Of a DNA stretch of 64,000 nt, positions 10,879 through 59,165 are shown in pieces. The translations under genes were made by a program, and so were the position numbers. The notes beneath the pieces are model-generated. The model did no database searches and was not told the origin of the DNA. It saw nothing but the letters and a program-made list of their open reading frames with translations. The stretch spans positions 3,534,001 to 3,598,000 of the forward strand of contig OZ038529.1 of the NCBI GenBank assembly GCA_964036665.1. The letters run 5' to 3'. Within the stretch, counting starts at the first letter, position 1; every line of letters begins with the position of its first letter. This DNA is from Gordius sp. MW1 (taxonomy: Eukaryota; Nematomorpha; Gordioida; Gordea; Gordiidae).

Positions 10879-12959
10879 ATGGATACCATTTCTGAAGTAG
10901 ATAATAGGAACGATGCAGCTCAATCTACCTTTTTACCTTGGCCTTCAATGGAAGAATACTTCAAATATGTATCTTCAGATAAAGATTCATTTAAAGTTAA
11001 GTGCAAACTATGCACTAAAGTTGTGGCGGCTTCAAGAACCTCAACAGCCAATTTATGGAGACATATAAAGGTAATAAGAATAACGTATTATAATTTATAA
11101 TATAAAATCTAGCTGTCTCACTATCAAAAACATGATGAGATTAAGAAGGCTGTCAAGAATAAGGCTGGAAAAAGTTGTGAAGCTAACAAAAAGTTAACAC
11201 AGACCTTAATTGACAGGCCTTTAAACCAAAATTCCCCAATGGCCATTATCAAATATATAATCAATGGTAATCAACCATTTTCGCTATGTGATGATGAGCA
11301 CTTCAATGAATTGTTGAGGGCTTTTAATCCAAAAGCAAAAACAATTTGTAGGCAAACACTCACAGGGAAGGTGATGAAATTTGCTGCAAAGATGAAAGAT
11401 ACAGTTAGAACAAAGTTAATGGCACCCAAGTATGTATGTACAACTGCAGATTGTTGGACAGCATTTAATAAGTACTTATTAATTTCTCTAAAATTGTCAA
11501 TTTATTTTTTTTGTTAGGTCATTTATTGGGGTAACAGCTCATTGGATAGACGATGAGAGTCTTAAAAGAGTTGATGCAGTTCTAGCCTGCAAATGTTTAG
11601 AGGGGAGGCACTCTTTTGATGTTATATGCAAATCCCTTACTCAAATTTACAAAGAGTACCATATTCAAAACAAAAATATCTGTACAATTACTGACAACGG
11701 ATCTAATTTCGTTAAAGCATTCAGGTACTATTTATATAATTCTTCTTTCCTAACTTTTATATAGGATTTTTAATGAAAATGATGAGATGCAGGAGGAAGT
11801 AGTATCTCTTAAGGATATACTTGATCGGGCTGGTTTAGAGGGACATAATCAAAATGATTATGATTATCTACCCAAACATAAGAGATGTGCTTGTCACACC
11901 CTAAATCTGATTGCTACAAGTGATGTTAACAAGCTTTTGAAAAACAATAATGCGTTTACTAAATTATATAATTCTTCATTCTGTAAGTGCCAGGCACTTT
12001 GGAACCTCAATAGCAGATCCACATTATCGGCACAAACCATACGTAACCGTTTTGGGTGTAATATACCCTACCCTGTAGTAACTAGATGGAATTCAACATT
12101 TGATTCCATCTCTGTTATAATAAAAATGATTCAAAATAAGCCTAGTGATTTTCATACTCTCTGTGATGAATTGAGGCTTGAAAGGCTTTCTTTGGAAGAA
12201 TCAAATTTTTTACAGGAATATCACTTAGTGAGTCATTATTTTAAATTTATTTAATTTTTTTAAGGTAATGGAGCCACTTGCTAAGGCCCTTGAAATTTTG
12301 CAGGGGCAAACATACATGTATATGGCTTATTATACACCTACCATAAGCCAGATTCAGTTATGTCTGCAGAATATGGTAAACTTAAAATGGGCTCAACCAT
12401 TAAAAGATGCTATTTTGAAAGGAATAAACATCAGGTATCAAATATAAATGGATTCTAATATATAAATCATATGGTTTTAAGATTTCCTGATCTCTATGAT
12501 GAGGAAAATATTATTGCAGCTGTCCTGCATCCAATTTTTAAGACAGACTGGGCTTGGATCCGGTCACCAGAAAATGTGGAGGAAAGGTCCAGAATCTTAA
12601 AAGCAATAAATTTACTAGTGCCTCAAACAACTGAAAATATGGAGGTGCATGATACACAGAATGGTTTAGATTTTTTTGATATAATACGTGAGAATTCTAA
12701 TAAAGAAACAATTGAAGACTATATTAAATTAAATAATACCTCATTCGATGTATTCGATGAATTTCCCAATCTAAAGCAAATTTTTATAAAATTTAATGTT
12801 TGCCTCCCATCTAGTGCTCCAGTTGAAAGGCTTTTCAGTCTGGGAAAGCTTATATTTGGAGATAAACGTACTTGTTTATTAAACGATAATTTTGAGAACA
12901 ATATTTTATTAAAGTCCAATGGACATCTACTTTCACATGATTTTTATTGTAAATTTTAA
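10879..12959 (+). CDS. hAT transposase, 622 aa, six exons
   Basis: Exons 10879-11070, 11113-11471, 11518-11724, 11765-12227, 12265-12434 and 12482-12959; introns of 42, 46, 40, 37 and 47 nt, all GT-AG. Coding total is 1869 nt with frame kept at every join. The N-terminus has a BED zinc finger (WPSMEEYF, CKLCTKV, then NLWRHIK across the first intron to SHYQKH). Catalytic-core landmarks are TADCWTAFNKS, TAHWIDDESLKRVD, TDNGSNFVKAF and VVTRWNSTFDS. The C-terminal dimerisation segment is SSAPVERLFSLG. The enzyme excises and reinserts DNA in the nucleus using a D-D-E site. Joins such as FNK|SFIGVTAHW and EYHL|VMEPLAKAL read as typical hAT proteins, which supports the tiny introns. No lesion was seen. 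Confidence 0.9.
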
Positions 12960-23029: not shown

Positions 23030-23790
23030 GTCTCACCGCACCCCCCCCCCCCCATCACAAGGACCTATGACTCCACTGATATCGAATCTCGGTGAGGGCA
23101 AAAATATTTTTCAAGCCTATTTGAACACCTGTTGCATTTGCCTTATTTAAACTTACATTGTAAAATTTCGGCGCCCCCGCCCCTTGTGGGGCTTATGTCT
23201 CCACTAATATGAGTTCGAACCTCCGTGAGGATAAATTTTTTTGCTTTTATTATTAACCTAAATTTTGCATTGATAATATATTGTTCCCGTTAATAACATA
23301 AATATTTGGCCGTCTGCTGGCTACTGACCAACGGAAATAACATGTGGCCAAAGTGTGATTGGGAATTTTTTTAAAACATTTTTTCCCTTATATAATATAG
23401 GCTTTTTGGTCGTCTGCTGACGAATAGAAAAAATGACCACTGGCCAAAGTGTGAATCGATTTTTTTAAATATTTGGCTCTTATGTATTTATAGGTTTTTG
23501 ACCGTCTGCTGACTTCTAACCAATAGAAAAAAATGACCATTGTCCAAAGTGTGAATAGAAATATTTTTCCTATACTTTGCTGTTATATAAATATAGCTAT
23601 TTGGTTGTCTGCTGACCAATAGAAAAAATGATTACTGGCCAAAGTGTGCATCAAAAAAATTTTCTTTATATTTTGCCCTTATATAATTATAGGCTATTTG
23701 GTCCTCTGCTGGCTGCTGACCAGTAAAAAAAATGGCCATTGGCCAAAGTGTGAATCCAAATTTTTTCCTATATATTGCCGTTAGTGTTTT
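23030..23790 (+). repeat. Satellite A, short diverged array, with tRNA-like box sequences
   Basis: Five units of about 110 bp from about 23300, each with CCGTCTGCTG, then ACCAATAG...ATGACCA and TGGCCAAAGTGTGAAT. The same satellite forms arrays at 47262-48240 and, inverted, at 55880-56720. Just upstream (23070-23230) are two short blocks with GTTCGAA-type sequence, decayed versions of the tRNA B-box-like motif seen beside the other arrays. Confidence 0.7.
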
Positions 23791-45578: not shown

Positions 45579-46833
45579 AAAACTTAAAAAGATATTGTCA
45601 GCATGGAAGAGTTATAAATAAAGAGTTCAGCTTGTGCCATATAGAGCACATTTATAGATGAATGGAGTTGTACGATTGTAATTTGAATGTCACGAATATT
45701 AAACGATGGTCTTGTTTTGTGAATCTTTATCGGATTGTATTGTATAATCACGTCGTAATCATTTTATATGTTAAATTTGTTGCAGTAATACTATGTTTTA
45801 TATGATTTAAAGAATTATTTCTTATGTGTCAAATGCTTCAAACGGTTATTTTTTCACGCCAATTAAATTTTGTTCAATTATTTACTAATTTCTCTTATAC
45901 TTATCCGTTCGGCCCATTTATACAATTTTTATACAAATTAATAAAAAAAATTGGAATCTTTTGTGAGTTGCCTCCCATTTATTTCATTCATTTTAAGCGT
46001 GGACGGAGAATTTGTACTGACTGAAGAGCGCTTTCTGTTTTACATTTATGGCTTTGCTTTATAAATATTTGTACAAGGGTCCGGGGAAGTTTGGTCGCAA
46101 AATAAGGATTAGAGATCCTTGTTTCTAGCCATGGGCGTATCCAGCATTGGAATTAGATGGGGGCAATGATGATTTAGGGAGATGCAAGATGAACATTTTT
46201 TGGGATTTTAGCCATAATTTTAATAAATTTCAAACAAATTTGGAATTTAGAGGGGGCAGCCGCCCCTTCCCCCCCCCCCTTGGCTACGCTCATGCTCGTT
46301 TGGTATTGGCTTGCCTCGAGTTTTGCGAAGATAAGCAAATTGCTAAAGGGGTTTATGACGTTCAAACCTCTTGGTTCATCAGGGTTTAATATAAGGAAGG
46401 CATTTTACAGTAAAAGATACTAGTATTAGCATATAGTGTTGAATAACTATGAGTTGCCATGCAATTTATGGTTCGCCCCTTGCTTGGAAAAATGTCAGTC
46501 TGTGGTGTCCAACTTTCCTTCCAATAGAAAAATTAAAATTCTGGTAACATTGTATTACCAAAAAATAAAAATTTAGTTTGTTTGAATTTTCTTATAATTC
46601 AGCCCCAGCCCCTTAATCACGGTACGCTTTCGGGTCGGGTTCGGGTTGAAATTTTAAAAACGCTTTCGGGTGGGGTCGGGTTGAAATTTTAAAAACGCTT
46701 TCGGGTTGGGTTCGGGTTGAAAATTTTAAAACGCTTTCGGGTCGGGTACGGGTTGAAAAAAAGTGACTTTGCAAGCCTCTAGTAGTTATATAGAAAATTG
46801 AATGCCGAATGTCGCTTAAAATACACTACCAAC
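45579..46833. other. Downstream of IFT52: one MITE and a GGGTCGGG tandem repeat
   Basis: 46130-46294 is a MITE of the same family. 46620-46768 has four units of about 40 bp (ACGCTTTCGGGTCGGGTTCG, then GGTTGAAATTTTAAAA). No gene seen. Confidence 0.6.
46130..46294 (+). mobile_element. hAT-type MITE, CATGGGCGTAGCCA family
   Basis: CATGGGCGTATCCAGCATTGG to TTGGCTACGCTCATG. The interior matches the family; no clear target duplication remains. Confidence 0.8.
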
Positions 46834-46998
46834 CATAGACTGCCCATGTCATGTTCCATATGGCAAATTGTGTGTGAAATTTGCCTCCATTTTGTTGAAC
46901 ACTACCGTCCTATATCACATAATGGCGTTTTGCGCTGTGCCGTTTTGTTCGAACAGGAGAGGTAAAGAAAAATGGTTTTGATTCCATAAATAAGTAAG

Positions 46999-47110
46999 AT
47001 ATTACAAAATATATGATATTTTTAAAAAATAAGATGAGTAAAACATTTTAGGCCTGAAATGAAAGGAACACCTAAATTTTTTTAAAAATATCATATATTT
47101 TGTAATATTA
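46999..47110. repeat. Hairpin next to the left fold-back arm
   Basis: TATTACAAAATATATGATAT at about 46999 is repeated inverted at about 47085-47110 (ATATCATATATTTTGTAATA), a long AT-rich stem. Confidence 0.7.
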
Positions 47111-47261
47111 ATTGCTATGCAATTTATGGACTCACTTTCCATTTTCCGATGTCTTGTCACGCTCTTCGGTGCCTTGCACCGAAATGTCTTGCACCGAATG
47201 ACGCTGTTATTTTTATTATTAATTGCTATTATTAATTTAACTAGTTTTTGGGTTCGAATCC

Positions 47262-48240
47262 CGGGGTTTTTTTTGACTCTTATGATTGTTCTTGTTACTA
47301 CCATTGATAATAAGACTTTTTGGTCGTCCGTTGGGTGCTGACCAATGAAAAAAATGACCATTAGCCAAAATGTGAATCCAAGTTTTTTTTTCGTTTTTTT
47401 GACTATTATGATTGTTCCTGTTACTACCAATGCTATTATGACTTTTTGGCCGTCCGCTGGCTGCTGACCGATGGAAAAAATGACCATTGGCCAAAATGTG
47501 AATCGAAATTATTTTTTTCGTTTTTTTGGCTAACATTGACAAGTACCCTATGCCCTCTCCTAGCAGAATGCCTCTACTGATATGGGTCCCTGTGCCCCCC
47601 CTCCCTACAAAAGCCTATGCCTCTCCTGATGTGGGTTCGAATCCCGGAGAGGCCAAATTTTATTTTTATTTTTTTTTGTTTAAATTAATATATTGTTCTT
47701 GTTAATACCATTGATAATAAGACTTTTTGGCCATCCGTTGACTGCTGACCAATGGAATGAAATGACCATTGGCCAAAATGTGAATCGCAACTATTTTTTT
47801 CGTTTTTTTTTACTATTATGATTGTTCTTATTAATACCATTGATAATATCGCTTTTTGGCCGTCCGTTAGCTGCTGACCAATGGAAAAAATGACTATTAG
47901 CCAAAATGTGAATCAAAATTTTTTTTTTCGGTTTTTTTTTACTTTTATGAATTTATATCTACTTTTACCGTGTCCTGGCTGCTGACCAATGGAAAAAATG
48001 ACCATTGGCCAAAATGTAATCGAAAATTTTTTTTCGTTTTTTTTGACTCTTATGAATTTATATCCTTTTTTACCGTATCCTGGCTGCTGACCAATGAAAA
48101 AATGACCATTGGCCAAACTGTGAAACGAAGTTTTTTTTTCGTTTTTTGACTCTTATGTATTTATAGACTGTCCGCTGCCTGCTGACCAATGCAGAAAAAT
48201 GACCTTTGGCCAAAATTTGGTTGAAAAAGTTTTAATTTAT
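47262..48240 (+). repeat. Satellite A array in the fold-back core
   Basis: Seven or so units of roughly 100-140 bp, each with TTTTTGGCCGTCCG, CTGCTGACCAATGG, AAAAAATGACCATTGGCC and AAAATGTGAATCG. Every unit contains CCAATGG and CCATTGG as an inverted pair about 9 nt apart. 47252-47268, 47632-47648 and 48537-48551 carry GGGTTCGAATCCC-type boxes. Confidence 0.8.
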
Positions 48241-48927
48241 CACCTGTAAATTTTTTGAGATATCCTTACAATACCTGTGTTTTTGTAGGTATATATTTTT
48301 TTTCAAACTACATTAATTGGTAATTTATGATAAAATAAAAAACCTAATTTTTAAATTCTTATAATTGCTACTTAGCAATGAAAAAAATGACCATTAGCCA
48401 ATTGTGATCGAAATTTTAATTTTCGCTTTTGAATTGGTTAACATCGATAATTACCCTATGCCCTCCCCTACAAGGGCCTATACCTCTACTTATATGGTTC
48501 CCTGTGCCCCTACAAAAGCCTATGCCTCTATTAATGTGGGTTCGACTCCCGGAGAGTGCAAAATATTTGTATAAATAATTAACTAATCATTTTGCATTTA
48601 ATACCCCCCTATAGGCATTCTCGCCCCTTTCCACCTTTCTCGCCCATAAACTGCATAGCAAATATGCTACTTTTATACAGAGTATAGAAGAGTTTGCCCT
48701 TCCCTTCCCCCCTTCCCTTCCCCCCCCCCCCTCCCCCTTCCCACGAGGGCCAAAGGCCCGAGTTCTTACTTATTTATGGAATCAAAACCTTTTTTCTTTA
48801 CCTCTCCTGTTCGAACAAAACGGCACAGCGCAAAACGCCATTATGTGATATAGGACGGTAGTGTTCATCAAAATGGCCGAAAAAACACACACATTTTATA
48901 CCGTGATGAGCAGTCTATGCTACCAAC

Positions 48928-50454
48928 ATTTCCATCTAAACTTTTTTCTAGAAAATTGATGGCTGATTATGTGTGGACTTTGTTTCGTAAAGGAAAACAA
49001 ACATAACTTATAAGCGGAAATCGCCATTAAATTTTTTCCATTAAACTATTGTAAATTTTATTACAAGTTTGTACCTTGCTTATCAATAAAAAATAAATAT
49101 CCCCTCATACTATACTATAAATTAATTTTGGTAAAAAATTTAACTTTTAAGGGTTTTTGTATTAATATTTTTATTATTTAGGGGGGTGCGGCCGTTCCCC
49201 CCTGCCCCCCCCCCCTTAGCTGCGCCCATGCCGTGCTGCAAAAAAATAAATACCGCAAAAAATGGTTATGAAGTAATTTGCATAGGCGAATATTAGAGCC
49301 CTGAAAAGTCATTTTTTTCAACCCGAACCCGACTTGATCCGAAAGTAAAAAAATTGATTGGTGTAAAATTGATTTTGATGGTTTTAAATGGCAGCAAAAT
49401 GTTATCTCAAAATAAGGCAACATTTAAAAACATGTTTGCCAGAAGTTAAAGCATTAGAAAAAAGTAGATCCTAAATGAGAAAAGTTTTTTTAATATATTT
49501 CAAGTATCCCACTTAACAAGCCATTCATTATCTTCAGGGCACCCGGTCAAAGTAGCAGAAAATAGCAGCCAAATTGATCAGATCAAGCAAGATTGGTCAG
49601 GAGGGTTAGGGTTAGTGTTTTAGGTTGGCGTTTTAGGTTAGGGTTAGGGTTATTTGCACATAAAATTCCCTCCCCATTTGAGATTTAATTCTAATATATT
49701 GATAATCTAAAAAAATATTTTTCTGCTACTTTTTCATCATTCTGCTACTTTGACCCCGATTCATCTTCAGTAGGCACCATGAAAAATGTAGACATTCTTA
49801 AACTTTTGCTATATTAAAATGAGTCTGTCTTTATTATCAAGCAATTTTGATTTTAAAGCTAATAATGGGGTTGTGCGGAAATGAAAGGAGAATATTTGAT
49901 CATTTTTTTTAAACTCTAATTTTTTAAATCATGTTTTTTATACATTTTAATTCGTTTAATAAATAATTATGAAAATTTTATTTTATTCTAATGAATATGT
50001 TAGATGGTAAAGCAAGTTGAGACATCAATATTTAAAAAAGATAAATGGGAGTTCACAAAATCGTTAAAAGTCTTGTGATTTATATGTTTATTATAATTTA
50101 TAGCATTAAGATATTTTACCTTTCTAAAATTTAAATTGCGCAAATCGATATTTTAGAAATAACTTAAAAGAAATTCATAAATGTATGAGATAAATTAATC
50201 ATATGTTTCGATATTAATTATAAAATATAATATATAATAATGACATTAATTTAAACAATATATCTATTATGAAATTTAAGATTCATAACCTTCAACCCGG
50301 ACCTTACCCAAGTTTGAAATTTTTCGACCCGACCGACCTTAAAGCATTTTAAAATTTTTAACCCGAACCCAACCCGACCCTAAGGCATTTAAAAATTTTC
50401 AACCTGAACCCTACCCGACTTCGGGTCGGGTTTCGGGTCACCCGTGCAGGTATA
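48928..50454. other. Repeat debris: MITE end, TTAGGG-like tracts, CCCGAACCC repeats
   Basis: 49180-49230 is only the right end of a MITE (CTGCGCCCATG). 49600-49655 contains GGTTAGGGTTAG and GTTAGGGTTAGGGTTA separated by a decayed stretch. 49315-49345 and 50285-50440 have CCCGAACCCGACTT-type words, the inverse of 46620-46768. No gene. Confidence 0.5.
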
Positions 50455-50641
50455 ATATTGGAGTCAGCGAACGTTGTAAAATAGCGAAGTCAAATGTCAA
50501 TCAAGCGTCATATATTATTTTCATTAAAATTGTTTAAATAGTTCTTATTGGCGGATAAAAACGTCAATCATCAATAATATTATGTTATTTAACATTACGA
50601 TTTTAATCATATTATATATCATAAATAAATTAAGAACTTTG

Positions 50642-51339
50642 CCCCCCCCCCCTTATTTTTTACCCTCTGTCTCACCAGGGGGGGGGGGGGGTGTTTTGCC
50701 CCCACCCCCTTATTTTTTACCCTCTTTCTCACCAGAGGGGGGGGGGGGGGGGGGTTTTGCCCCCCCCCCCAATTATTTTTTATTCTCTTTCTCACCAGAG
50801 GGGAGATGGGGGCCCCCCCTTATTTTTTATCCTCTTTCTCACCAGAGGGGAGATGGGCCCCCCCCCCCTTATTTTTGACCCTCTTTCTTACCAGAGGGGA
50901 GGGGGGTCTTTTGCCTCCCCCCTATTTTTTATCCTATTTCTTACCAGAGGGAAGGGGGGGGGGGGGTGTTTTGCCCCCCCCCCTACTTTTTACCCTCTTT
51001 CTCACTAGAGGGGGGAGGGGGGGGGGGGGGGGGTTTGCCTCCCCCCTTATTCTTTATCCTATTTATTACCAGAGGGGGGGTTTTGCCTCCCCCCCCCCCC
51101 TTATTTTTTATTTTCTTTCTCACCAGAGGGGAGATGGGGGCCCCCCCTCATTTTTATCCTCTTTCTCACCACAGGAGAGATGGGGGGGGCCCTTATTTTT
51201 GACCCTCTTTCTTACCAGAAAGGAGGGGGGTCTTTTGCCCCCCCTATTTTTTATCCTATTTCTTACCAGAGGGGAGGAAAACACCCCCGCTTATTTTTTA
51301 TCCTCTTTCTCACCAAAGGGGAGATGGGGGGGGGGGGGG

Positions 51340-51373
<34 letters not shown>

Positions 51374-51525
51374 GTTTTGCCCCCCCCCTTATTTTTGACC
51401 CTCTTTCTTACCAGAGGAGAGGGGGGTCTTTTGCCCCCCCCGCCTATTTTTTATCCTATTTATTACCAGAGGGGAGGGGGGGGGGGGTCTTCTGCACCCC
51501 TTATTTTTTATCCTTCTTTTTCACT
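50642..51525 (+). repeat. Forward satellite arm of fold-back 1
   Basis: C-run, TTATTTTTTACCCTCTTTCT, CACCAGAGG, G-run, TTTTGCC. Runs of 8-20 G are common, and near 51327-51372 almost unbroken G reaches about 45. Some units have TTACCAGAGG instead of TCACCAGAGG. Confidence 0.85.
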
Positions 51526-51530
51526 TGTGC

Positions 51531-52510
51531 CCCCCCCCCTGGTAAGAAAAAGGGTAAAAAATAGGGGGGGGGGCAAATCACCCCCCTCCCCTCTGGTGAG
51601 AAAAAGGATAAAAAATAAGGGGGGGGCAAAACACCCCCCTACCCCCTGGTGAGAAAGAGGGTAAAAAATCGTGGGGGGGGGGGGCAAATCACTCCTCCCC
51701 CCCCCCTGGTGAGAAAGAGGGTAAAAAATAATGGAAGGGGGCAAATCACCCCCTACCATTTGGTGAGAAAGAGGATAAAAAATAATGGGGGGGGGGGGGG
51801 GCAAATCACTTTTTTACCCCCTGGTGAGAATGAGGGTAAAAAATAATTGGGGGGGGGGGGGCAAATCACCCCCACCCGGGCCCCCCCCCCCCCCCCTCTG
51901 GTTAGAAAGAATATAAAAAATAATGGGGGGGGGGACAAATCACCCCCTACCCCCTGGTGAGAAAGAGGGTAAAAAATAATGGGGGGGGGGGGGGGGTAGG
52001 GGGCAAATCACCCCCTCTCCCCCCCCCCCCTGGTGAGAAAGAAGATAAAAAATAAGGGGGGGGGGGGGCAAATCACCCCCTACCCTCTGGTGAGAAAGAG
52101 GATAAAAAATAATGGGGGGGGGGGGCAAATCACCCCCTACCCCCTCGTGAGAAAGAGGGTAAAAAATAATGGGGGGGGGGGCAAATCACCCCCCTCCCCC
52201 TGGCGAGAAAGAAAATAAAAAATAATGGGGGGGGAGGCAAATCACCCCCTACCCCCTGGTGAGAAAGAGGGTAAAAAATAATTGGGGGGGGGGGCAAATC
52301 ACCCCCCCCCCCCTCTGGTGAGAAAGAGGGTAAAAAATAATGGGGGGGGGCAAATCACCCCCTACCCCCTGGTGAGAAAGAGGGTAAAAAATAATGGGGG
52401 GGGGGAAGCAAATCACCTCCCTCCCCCCCCCCCCCCCCCGAGAAAGAGGGTAAAAAATAATGGGGGGGGGCACCCCCCCTCCCCCTGGTGAGAAAGAGGG
52501 TAAAAAATAA
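51531..52510 (-). repeat. Reverse satellite arm of fold-back 1
   Basis: Inverse of the same unit: CCCCTGGTGAGAAAGAGG, GTAAAAAATAAT, G-run, CAAATCACCCCC. The unit differs from the forward arm by CAAATCAC in place of the complement of GTTTTG, so each arm was homogenised separately. Confidence 0.85.
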
Positions 52511-52850
52511 TATAATTATATTTAACTTAATATTTAATACAACACAATTAGCATCTAATCTCTACCTTACAAAATGTTATTAAGTTCAATATAATTATAT
52601 CAATTTAAATGTATTAGTTATCTATCTTTATCTAATTCAAATATGGGATAATTGACGTTCAAATTTAAAAACGCTCTGGTATAACAATGGGATCGTCAAT
52701 AACAATGCATTTTCCCAATCCCCACCCAATCCCCTGCTAGTAAAAAAAGACGTGATAAACGTCAAAACTCATTATTTCGTGTTTTTAACCAATAGCAATT
52801 CGTATAAGACGTTCGCTATTTTACAATCTTCGTCATTTCTGTACGCTACA

Positions 52851-55320: not shown

Positions 55321-56830
55321 ACAACCAAAAACGAGCTATAAATTTCATAGCTATTAATTAGTTTATATTGCAGTTATAATATAAAACGTTATATGAGTAA
55401 TACATCTTCATCTTGCTCTTTTAAAAGCTAGGAAAAATAGATCTGAAATTAAAAACTCGGGCCTTCGGCCCTCGTGGGAAGGGGGAGAAGGGAAGGGAAG
55501 AGGGGAAGGGAAGGGGGGACGACTCATCTGTACTTCGTATAAATGTATCATATTTGCTATGCAATTTATGGGCGAGAAAGGTGGGAAGGGGCAAGAATGC
55601 CTATAGGGGGGTATTAAATGCCTAATGATTAATTAATTATTTATACAAATTTTCCATTTATAGGCAAAATGTAATATAGGCAAAATGTAATATAGACAAG
55701 GGTTAGGGTTAGATTTAGTGTTTGCATCTAGTTGCGTATTACATTAGTTTTTATGGCCTTTAGTGATTATGGGTCTAACAAACATTATATTATAAAACAT
55801 CACAATGTTAAGAATTTGCAGAATTGTTGGGAGAAATTTTTTGTTGAATTTGAACAATTTTTAATTAAAAATATCAAAAATTTGGCCAATGGTCATTTTT
55901 CTCTATTGGTCAGTACCAACAGATACTCTATAAGTCAATGATAGCCAAAAAAACGGGAAAAAAAATTTTGATGCTCACTTTGGCCAATGGTCATTTTTTT
56001 CCATTGGTCAGCAGCCAGCACACGGTAAAAGTGGATATAAATTCATAAGAGTAAAAAAAACGAAAAAAAAATTTTCGAATCACATTTTGGCCAGTGGTCA
56101 TTTTTTTCCATTGGTCACCAGCCAGGACACGGTAAAAGTGGATATAAATTCATAATAGTCAAAAAAAAACGAGAAAAAAAAATTTCGAATCACATTTTGG
56201 CCAATGGTCATTTTATTCCATTGGTCAGCAGCCAGCGGACGGCCAAAAAGTCATAATAGCAATGGTAGGAACAGGAACAATCATAATAGTCAAAAAAAAA
56301 CAAAAAAAAATTCGAATCACATTTTGGCCAATGGTCATTTTTTCCATCGGTCAGGAGCCAGCGGACGGCCAAAAATTCTTATTATCAATGATAGTAACAA
56401 GAACAATCATAAGAGTCAAAAAAAACTCCGGGATTCTAACCCAAAAACTAGTTAAATTGCATAGCAATTAAAAGTAAACAACTTTTATTTATGTTTATTA
56501 TATAACATTGGTCAGCAGCCAGCGGACGGCCAAAAAGTCATAATAGCAATGGTAGGAACAGGAACAATCATAATAGTCAAAAAAAACGAAAAAAATAATT
56601 TCGATTCACATTTTGGCCAATGGTCATTTTTTCCATCGGTCAGGAGCCAGCGGACGGCCAAAAATTCTTATTATCAATGTTAGTAACAAGAACAATCATA
56701 AGAGTCAAAAAAAACTCCGGGATTCTAACTAAAAAACTAGTTAAATTGCATAGCTATTAAAAGTAAACAACCTAAAAAACTAGTTAAATTGCATAGCTAT
56801 TAAAATTAAACAACTTTTATTTATGTTAAT
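55321..56830 (-). repeat. Inverted copy of the THAP fold-back core, without its arms
   Basis: 55445-55620 is the inverse of 48590-48775 (GGGCCTTCGGCCCTCGTGGG; CTATAGGGGGGTATTAAATG). 55880-56720 is satellite A in reverse (TTGGCCAATGGTCATTTTTT, CCAGCGGACGGCC). The CATAGACTG ends and THAP exons are absent. Confidence 0.75.
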
Positions 56831-57409: not shown

Positions 57410-59165
57410 CGATCCTCCCTAATTTTTTACCCTCTTTCTCACCCGGGGGGGGGGAGGCATGGGGGGTGTTTTGCCCCCCCCCCCTAATTTTTTATCCTCT
57501 TTCTGATGCCGGGGATGGGGGGGGGGGGGGCAGGGGGTGTTTTGCCCCCCCCCCTAATTTTTTACCCTCTTTCTCACCCGGGGGGGGGGCATGGGGGGTG
57601 TTTTGCTCCCGCCCCTAATTTTTTATACTCTTTCTGATGCCGAGGAGAGGGGGGGCAGGGGGTGTTTTGCCCCCCCTAATTTTTTACCCCACCCGGGGGG
57701 GGGGGGGTGTTTTGCCCCCTCCCCATTATTTTTTATTCTCTTTTTCACCCGGGGGGGGGGGGGGTGTTTTGCCCCCTCCCCATTATTTTTTGTTCTCTTT
57801 CTCACCCGGGGGGGGGGGGGTGTTTTGCCCCCTCTTCATTATTTTTTTATTCTCTTTCTCACCCGGGGAGGGGGGGGGGGGGTGTTTTGCCCCCTCTCCA
57901 TTGTTTTTTACCCTCTTTCTCACCCGGGGGGGGGGGGGTGTTTTGCCCCCTCCCAATTATTTTTTAACCTCTTTCTCACCGGGGGGGGCATGGGGGGTGT
58001 TTTGCCCCCCCCCCTAATTTTTCACCCTCTTTCTGATGCGGGGGAGAGGGGGGGGGCTCTTCTTTCTGATGCCGGGGAGTGGAAGAGGCAAGTGGTGTTT
58101 TGCCCCCACCCCCCCCCCCCCCATTATTTTTTACCCTCACCCTTTGCCCCCCCCCCCTATTTTTTACCCTCTTTGTCACCCGGGGGGGGGGCTGGAAAGC
58201 CGTTTTTAACCCTTTCAAAATATTTTTATGAATTTTTGCGGTTACAGTGGTGACAAATGTCATAATCAACATTTTTTATTGAATTTTTTTTTTTAATTGA
58301 CTATCACCCCCTCCCCCCCCTCTCCTTGGCATCAGAAAGAGGGTGAAAAATTAACTCCCCCCCCCCTCTCCCCCGCATCAGAAAGAGGGTAAAAAATTAG
58401 GGGGGGGGCAAAACACCCCCCATGCCCCCCCCCTCCCGGGTGAGAAAGAGGGTAAAAAATTAGGGGGGGGGGGCGCAAAACACCCCCTGCCCCCCCCCTC
58501 CTATCCCCGGCATCAGAGAGAAGATAAAAAATTAGGGGGGGGGCAAAACACCCCCCATGCCCCCCCTCCCCGGGTGAGAAAGAGGGTAAAAAACTAAAAA
58601 ATCATGGGGGGGCAAAACACCCCCCATGCCCCCCCCCCTGGTGAGAAAGAGGGTAAAAAATTAGGGGGGGGGGCAAAACACCCCCTGCCCCCCCCCCTAT
58701 CCCCGGCATCAGAAAGAGGATAAAAAATTAGGGGGGGGGGCAAAACACCCCCCATGCCCCCCCCTATCCCCGGTATCAGAAAGGGGATAAAAAAATTAGG
58801 GGGGGGGGGCAAAACACCCCGCATGCCCCCCCTATCCCCGGTATCAGAAAGGGGATAAAAAATTAGGGGGGGGGGGGCAAAACACCCCCCATGCCCCCCC
58901 CCCCGGGTGAGAAAAAGAATAAAAAATTAGGGGGGGGGGCAAAACACCCCCCATGCCCCCCCCCCCCCCGGGTGAGAAAGAGGGTAAAAAATTAGGGGGG
59001 GGGGCAAAACACCCCCATGCCCCGCCCCCCGGGTGAGAAAGAGGGTAAAAAATAGAGAGTATATATAGAATCCCATTATAACGTTGAATGCTAATGTATC
59101 TTCAAGATGGCGGTAAAACTAGCATCACTTTTTCGGTACGTGTGTACGTATAATGAGCAGTCTAT
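57410..59165. mobile_element. Fold-back structure 2: inverted satellite arms with two unit types
   Basis: 57412-58195 has units TAATTTTTTACCCTCTTTCT followed by either CACCCGGGGG or GATGCCGGGGA, then G-run and TGTTTTGCC with C-run. 58308-59057 has the inverse order and strand. A 110-bp AT-rich centre separates the arms. The right flank ends ATAATGAGCAGTCTAT at 59165, which matches the outer end of the THAP fold-back element (TGATGAGCAGTCTATG at 48904-48919). A matching left end was not found. Confidence 0.65.

Follow-up and report, generated by a model that had tools for sequence, protein, structure and literature searches.

The window, by which we mean the whole stretch of 64,000 nucleotides analysed here (C3:3534001-3598000; the genome searched comprises 211.8 Mb in 12 contigs), contains at 46834-48919 an element bounded on both sides by a perfect 8-bp duplication of CTACCAAC. 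The parts of the locus are as follows:

46826..46833: left target-site duplication, 8 bp, CTACCAAC, a perfect match to the right one
46834..47029, plus strand: left arm, with a 5'-type P terminus, leader, exon-1 start, donor and part of intron 1
46922..46993, plus strand: left-arm exon-1 equivalent, MAFCAVPFCSNRRGKEKWF, with a TGA stop at 46979-46981, followed by the donor GTAAGA
47031..47070, minus strand: loop, a 40-nt remnant of THAP exon 2 (second half of the finger), 35/40 identical to L062/L078
47078..47108, minus strand: inner end of the right arm, intron-1 sequence, a 31-nt perfect complement of 46999-47029
47109..48763, no strand assigned: later insertion, a 1,655-bp repeat, Helentron/HINE-like by structure
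48764..48919, minus strand: remainder of the right arm, with intron 1, exon-1 start and leader, then a 3'-type P terminus
48770..48841, minus strand: right-arm exon-1 equivalent, MAFCAVPFCSNRRGKEKRF, with a TGA stop at 48784-48782
48920..48927: right target-site duplication, 8 bp, CTACCAAC, a perfect match to the left one

Both arms face inward, each with ATG...MAFCAVPFCSNRRG, and are inverted to each other over 120 nt at 96% complementarity (46880-46999 and 48764-48883); the 36-nt exon start occurs in both, at 46922-46957 on the plus strand and at 48806-48841 on the minus strand, and satellite-like tandem repeats are located between them. The initial annotation, which had recorded a perfect 8-bp duplication around inverted, inward-pointing arms carrying an exon start, was correct on these points. 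The arms do not simply repeat one another over their outer ~60 bp: the left one resembles the 5' terminus of P-element copies, with a relative on contig C6 as the best match, and the right one resembles the 3' terminus, as found in a relative on contig C2. A Pfam search of eight neighbouring open reading frames of the window returned no match except a weak one, below the cut-off, to the hAT dimerisation domain at 12471-12959. Other repeats are present nearby. Tandem repeats of 36 and 41 bp (CTTTCGGGTCGGGTTCGGGTT-like) flank the element in opposite orientations at 46624-46758 and 50333-50419, and tandem arrays rich in G and C runs, with units of about 46-68 bp (TTATTTTTTACCCTCTTTCTCACCAG-like), occupy 50638-52511 and 57690-59053, each in two oppositely oriented halves.

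The element descends from a P element. A profile search of the genome yielded 76 matches to PF21787 and 146 to PF05485, and several of these loci have 5' ends that align with the arm, with identity reaching 89%. The relative on C2 (C2:24703447-24706859, minus strand, 3.4 kb), the only one found with both termini and all domain-bearing exons, matches the MITE at both ends and carries P-transposase exons. Its 3' terminus is 95% identical to the outer right arm over 59 columns (~58 bp), its 5' end is 74% identical to the left arm, and its two ends resemble each other at 81% over 80 nt. In Pfam, its exons match THAP (PF05485), Tnp_P_element (PF12017, 56.8 bits), RNaseH_N (PF21787, 69.2 bits), GBD (PF21788, 40.7 bits on exon 7 and 18.1 bits, below the cut-off, on exon 5) and RNaseH_C (PF21789, 41.5 bits), that is, a P-type HTH and an RNase H domain with a GTP-binding insertion. 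When exons 1 and 2 are spliced, PF05485 scores 69.0 bits for this copy, 64.3 bits for L061 and 70.5 bits for L062, placing a THAP domain at the N terminus, and P transposase 6p5a is the only PDB-sequence match of the C2 RNase H exon at E <= 0.01. The P-element origin suggested in the initial annotation is upheld by these ends and exons, and the full-length relative that it had proposed to look for, with exon 1 leading into a THAP/P transposase, is found in the C2 copy. No target-site duplication was found around this copy, which on a simple reading is also interrupted by a single in-frame stop separating two conserved exon-8 blocks, so that a working transposase source is only putative.

The C6 relative (within 18932400-18938303) is 92% identical to the C2 copy over positions 1-2992, and its 5' end is 88-90% identical to the left arm; it lacks a 3' end because it sits tail-to-tail with another copy. 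The termini of the MITE are accordingly those of coding elements, shared with C2 at the 3' end and with C6 and C2 at the 5' end. Identity to the arm is only about 88% for C6, which lacks its 3' end, and 74% for C2, the nearest coding copies, so the direct parent may not be present. Two shorter relatives, L062 (1,055 bp, no duplication) and L070 (906 bp), are ordinary internal-deletion copies in which both ends are present and the 3' end lacks an inverted exon. The possibility that full-length or long elements already carried the fold-back was rejected because C2, L062 and L070 have none. Two further observations concern P elements in this genome. The tail-to-tail copies at C6:18932400-18938303 include a 504-bp inverted part that is 98.6% identical, and a second P family comprises at least 10 copies of equal RNase H score (C3:19541493, C8:1988134, C7:4278831 and others; L036-L045), with no arm match in the loci fetched; this family has possibly been active recently.

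The window element is one copy of an abundant, small, P-derived non-autonomous transposon that carries the start of the transposase gene in both ends, as the initial annotation had supposed when it described the transposase start as drawn into both terminal repeats. The 36-nt exon start is present in 480 genome copies at <=3 mismatches (237 on the plus and 243 on the minus strand; 0 for a reversed-pattern control), far more than chance would give. We analysed the 30 loci that best match the window arm, obtained by scoring 40 of 704 candidates, of which 29 lie outside the window. Two arms with a recognisable second end were found in 28 of these 29, with lengths of 447-482 bp; no second end was found in L022, which was left outside the 28. 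These two-ended copies represent a small part of the 480 exon-start sites; in all, about 31 fold-back elements were read. An 8-bp duplication with <=1 mismatch flanks 27 of the 28 (23 perfect, 4 with one mismatch), the exception being L004 (rearranged end, 3 mismatches), when the most favourable of 36 placements of the ends is taken for each copy (either unit, outer or inner, at each end, with a shift of <=1 base); 22 of the 23 perfect duplications required no shift. Together with the perfect duplication in the window, this gives the mobile unit the 8-bp duplication of the P superfamily. In the pairs L009/L010 and L014/L020, 604 nt of flanking sequence are shared, so that each pair represents the duplication of one insertion and not two insertions, which reduces the 28 to 26; shorter flank repeats are common to L015/L024/L021 and to L021/L026. 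The majority sequence of 27 copies (L004 excluded) is 462 nt long, and identity to it ranges from 94.6% to 99.6% with a median of 98.5%, in a sample biased by the choice of copies as best arm matches; the sole both-ended full-length copy is the one with the in-frame stop. The family is thus short, non-coding, bounded by TIRs and present in many homogeneous copies, as expected of MITEs.

The structure of exon 1 could be read from the coding relatives. In five of them, it is 68 nt long (MSFCAVPFCSNRRGKDKRFSFHK-like) and forms a continuous THAP frame when joined to FPVKNPQLL.... These five come from seven close 5' ends compared (L061, L062, L063, L064, L078, L070 and L074), among which L070 has no donor and L074 does not stay in frame; the in-frame L062 has an altered acceptor (AA). 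Among four more distant 5' ends (L065, L066, L068 and L069), no clean automatic exon join was obtained, and L068 has an in-frame stop. The initial annotation had proposed a 40-nt exon followed by a GTAAAG donor. In the five relatives, GTAAAG is coding (Gly-Lys, GK), the true donor lies 28 nt further on, and joining at GTAAAG produced a stop two residues beyond the junction codon in all 5 copies tried. The proposed exon does not hold, and GTAAAG was ruled out as a splice donor, because the frame reads through it and joins made there give stops. About 113 of the 146 genome THAP matches (counted by eye) begin at profile positions 17-22, and an early intron that splits the THAP finger therefore seems common among the P/THAP sequences of this genome.

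In both window arms, a TGA follows after 19 codons, ahead of the native donor (GT at 46994-46995 in the left arm). Compared with the P copies, the MITE arms have a TGA in place of a serine codon and four bases added before the donor, and the exact GGTTTTGATTCC is found in 49 of 57 MITE arms. The exon start itself is present in 57 of 58 arms examined (the right arm of L018 is the exception), with the GTAAG donor retained in most. Nevertheless, the frame of a working THAP start-exon donor, running open from the ATG to the native donor, is lacking: a stop closes the exon before the native donor in 54 of 57 arms, two (L017 right and L020 left) are open only via a one-base frameshift, and one has no recognisable donor. 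With 54 of the 57 closed in this way, both window arms included, THAP fusions are unlikely. Moreover, no more than the first half of the C2CH zinc finger is encoded in the arms.

The full termini read CATAGACTACATAGACTG... and contain a 9-bp unit nearly twice in tandem (CATAGACTA CATAGACTG). The window copy begins and ends at the inner unit on both sides and L026 does so on one side; the remaining 26 copies with a duplication have the outer unit at both ends. The longer deletion copy L070 combines an inner 5' end with an outer 3' end and has a 7/8 duplication. Because the window copy, L026 and L070 end at the inner unit and have duplications, this unit can apparently serve as a terminus, and, judging from these sequences, the transposase seems able to cut at either one.

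The right arm resembles the P 3' terminus as far as CCATTTTGATGAACA, a stretch common to both ends of the C2 relative, and continues from there as 5' sequence in inverted orientation. Two types of loop connect the arms. The majority loop is P 3' UTR (59/66 identical to C2; score 102 versus a maximum of 53 in 200 shuffles), and 26 of 29 elements match it directly, with L016 shortened and L026 inverted. The window loop is THAP exon 2 in the opposite orientation (35/40 identical to L062; score 60 versus a maximum of 40 in 500 shuffles); this sequence has 37 genome sites at <=3 mismatches (control 0), at least 9 of which, the window included, lie within about 125 bp of a listed exon start. In L093 the left end is 3'-type, and the right end is truncated and starts as 5'-type; both ends of L094 are 5'-type. 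We infer that the variation in end type and loop orientation (L026, L093 and L094) reflects recombination between the long inverted arms; as both features differ among copies, the order of the rearrangements is uncertain.

The satellite-like repeats belong to a separate insertion. The window sequence to the left and right of 47109-48763 aligns with MITE positions 10-297 and 297-453, and the loop-B siblings L093 and L094 run uninterrupted through the insertion point. Copies of the 1,655-bp insert with the same two ends are found on C1, C9 and C5 (three full-length copies, 91-93% identity; 40 were scored out of 7,395 candidate places at first look). The insert has subterminal inverted repeats (47109-47129 and 48644-48664), central tandem repeats of 105-129 bp and a GGGCC-AAA-GGCCC palindrome four bases from its end. 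A T stands on either side in 4 of 4 copies compared; since the empty siblings show just one T there, the other may be part of the element itself, and a T/T insertion is only tentative. By its structure, the insert resembles a non-autonomous Helentron of the HINE/DINE-1-like kind, and no similarity to the P element was seen in the comparison of the insert with the MITE. The satellite was accordingly rejected as the core of the mobile unit, since the insert has its own ends and is absent from two siblings: contrary to the initial annotation, the core had not been replaced by satellite A, and the satellite sits in an independent repeat that was inserted later. More pieces of this satellite-bearing repeat occur in the window at 55455-56767 and 23191-23766.

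Taken together, the window element is very probably a non-autonomous fold-back MITE of the P superfamily, later interrupted by a Helentron/HINE-like repeat, and may have arisen as follows. Internal deletion would have removed the core of a P element, and the leader, exon 1 and start of intron 1, which form its 5' subterminal stretch, would have been copied in inverted orientation beside the 3' terminal repeat, presumably by template switch or conversion with the switch point inside CCATTTTGATGAACA. The result would be a hairpin-shaped element of ~460 bp, which P transposase could have mobilised in trans via the CATAGACTACATAGACTG... ends, generating 8-bp duplications and spreading it to many copies. 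The window copy belongs to the loop subtype with a scrap of THAP exon 2, with the inner 9-bp unit used as the terminus at both ends, and was later split 31 nt into its right arm by the Helentron/HINE-like repeat with its satellite core. The steps leading from a P element to the fold-back MITE are open to direct study in this genome, where parent-like internal deletions (L062 and L070), fold-backs with two loop types and a form with two 5'-type ends (L094) occur side by side.

Other readings of the locus fare worse. Had the core been swapped for satellite A and had the arms acted as a working promoter and start exon, insertions could have produced THAP fusions, and the near-universal exon start (57 of 58 arms) with its mostly retained GTAAG donor fits that view. 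However, the satellite resides in an independent repeat with its own ends that is missing from two siblings, stops close 54 of 57 arms before the native donor, the join at a 40-nt exon with GTAAAG leads to a stop in 5 of 5 relatives, and the arms hold just the first half of the C2CH finger; we consider this account very unlikely, and the power to create THAP fusions that had been attributed to the arms is not supported. 8-bp duplications by themselves do not discriminate hAT from P elements, so that the likeness to a THAP exon might in principle be fortuitous, in an unrelated (e.g. hAT or Mutator) fold-back with 8-9-bp duplications. Against this, the arm sequence extends into the 5' ends of elements that have THAP and P RNase H exons, and both termini match relatives. 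The C2 and C6 copies refute a chance resemblance, which we ruled out on the strength of these P exons and to which we assign a negligible probability.

A further question is whether the fold-back MITE is a passive parasite. It may instead have been kept or spread because read-through transcripts of its arms would yield a hairpin of ~190 bp directed against exon 1, leading to small-RNA silencing of P elements. The predicted folding of two copies is very stable (-271 and -287 kcal/mol versus means of -85 and -82 kcal/mol for 20 mononucleotide shuffles each), and the arms span the leader, exon 1 and intron 1 of P copies; on the other hand, the nearest coding copies have diverged by ~12% from the arm, and long inverted repeats fold strongly regardless of role. 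We regard such a selected function as improbable. It is similarly doubtful that the MITE, with its own transposase's leader, start exon and donor in both arms, serves as a putative hairpin or inward promoter that regulates the parent P family through small RNAs or promoter competition; if it did, such regulation would act from perhaps about 240 loci, on the assumption that each element has two of the 480 exon starts.

The layout is unusual, and close precedents exist. The P-MITEs of Anopheles gambiae (Quesneville et al. 2006, PMC1562414) have P-element ends, 8-bp duplications, lengths of 205-2450 bp and 5 to 310 copies and, like the window family, coexist with related full-length P subfamilies. 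As described there, their internal region is unlike any P element and the P sequence in common amounts to 114-198 bp in all, whereas in the window family P-derived sequence makes up the arms, coding exon 1 included, and both loop types examined. The 1,655-bp insert is comparable to DINE-1/HINE elements, which are non-autonomous Helentrons characterized (PMC4067079) by a palindromic subterminal inverted repeat by the 5' end, central tandem repeats, a palindrome a few bases from the 3' end and flanking Ts; the 3' subterminal repeat of the insert lies ~100 nt from the end, versus 38-60 in DINE-1/HINE. Tetris/DAIBAM of Drosophila virilis is likewise a fold-back associated with tandem repeats and 8-10-bp duplications; the tandem repeats of Tetris lie in the TIRs and probably arose there (PMC4079207), whereas those in the window came with a separate inserted element.

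A close parallel is Galileo, also of the P superfamily, the long TIRs of which grow by recruiting adjoining internal sequence in inverted orientation (PMC3573991 and PMC4168063). In D. mojavensis, the recruited stretch separates TIR1 from the ORF (F1) or follows the ORF (F2) (PMC3573991), and in D. willistoni the TIR recruits 69 to more than 500 bp of the transposase ORF end (PMC4168063). Many Galileo copies without transposase and TE insertions inside a TIR are further likenesses in these accounts. They describe the recruitment of the leader or the ORF end, whereas the ~460-bp window MITE has taken up the start-codon exon, the donor and part of intron 1; unlike the long TIRs of Galileo, the ends of the full-length C2 relative are alike over only ~80 nt at 81%. 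In the open-licence literature, covered mostly as titles and the starts of abstracts, we found no P MITE whose two TIRs both contain the start exon of the transposase. The view in the initial annotation that the layout is undescribed consequently stands only in a narrow sense, for the start exon in both arms, and fails for TIR recruitment as such, which the Galileo papers already describe. What appears to be new is that a high-copy MITE carries the start exon in each arm. The TIR extension known from Galileo is thereby widened to a MITE of the P type and to the 5' end of the coding region, and a tempting story of exon shuffling is corrected.
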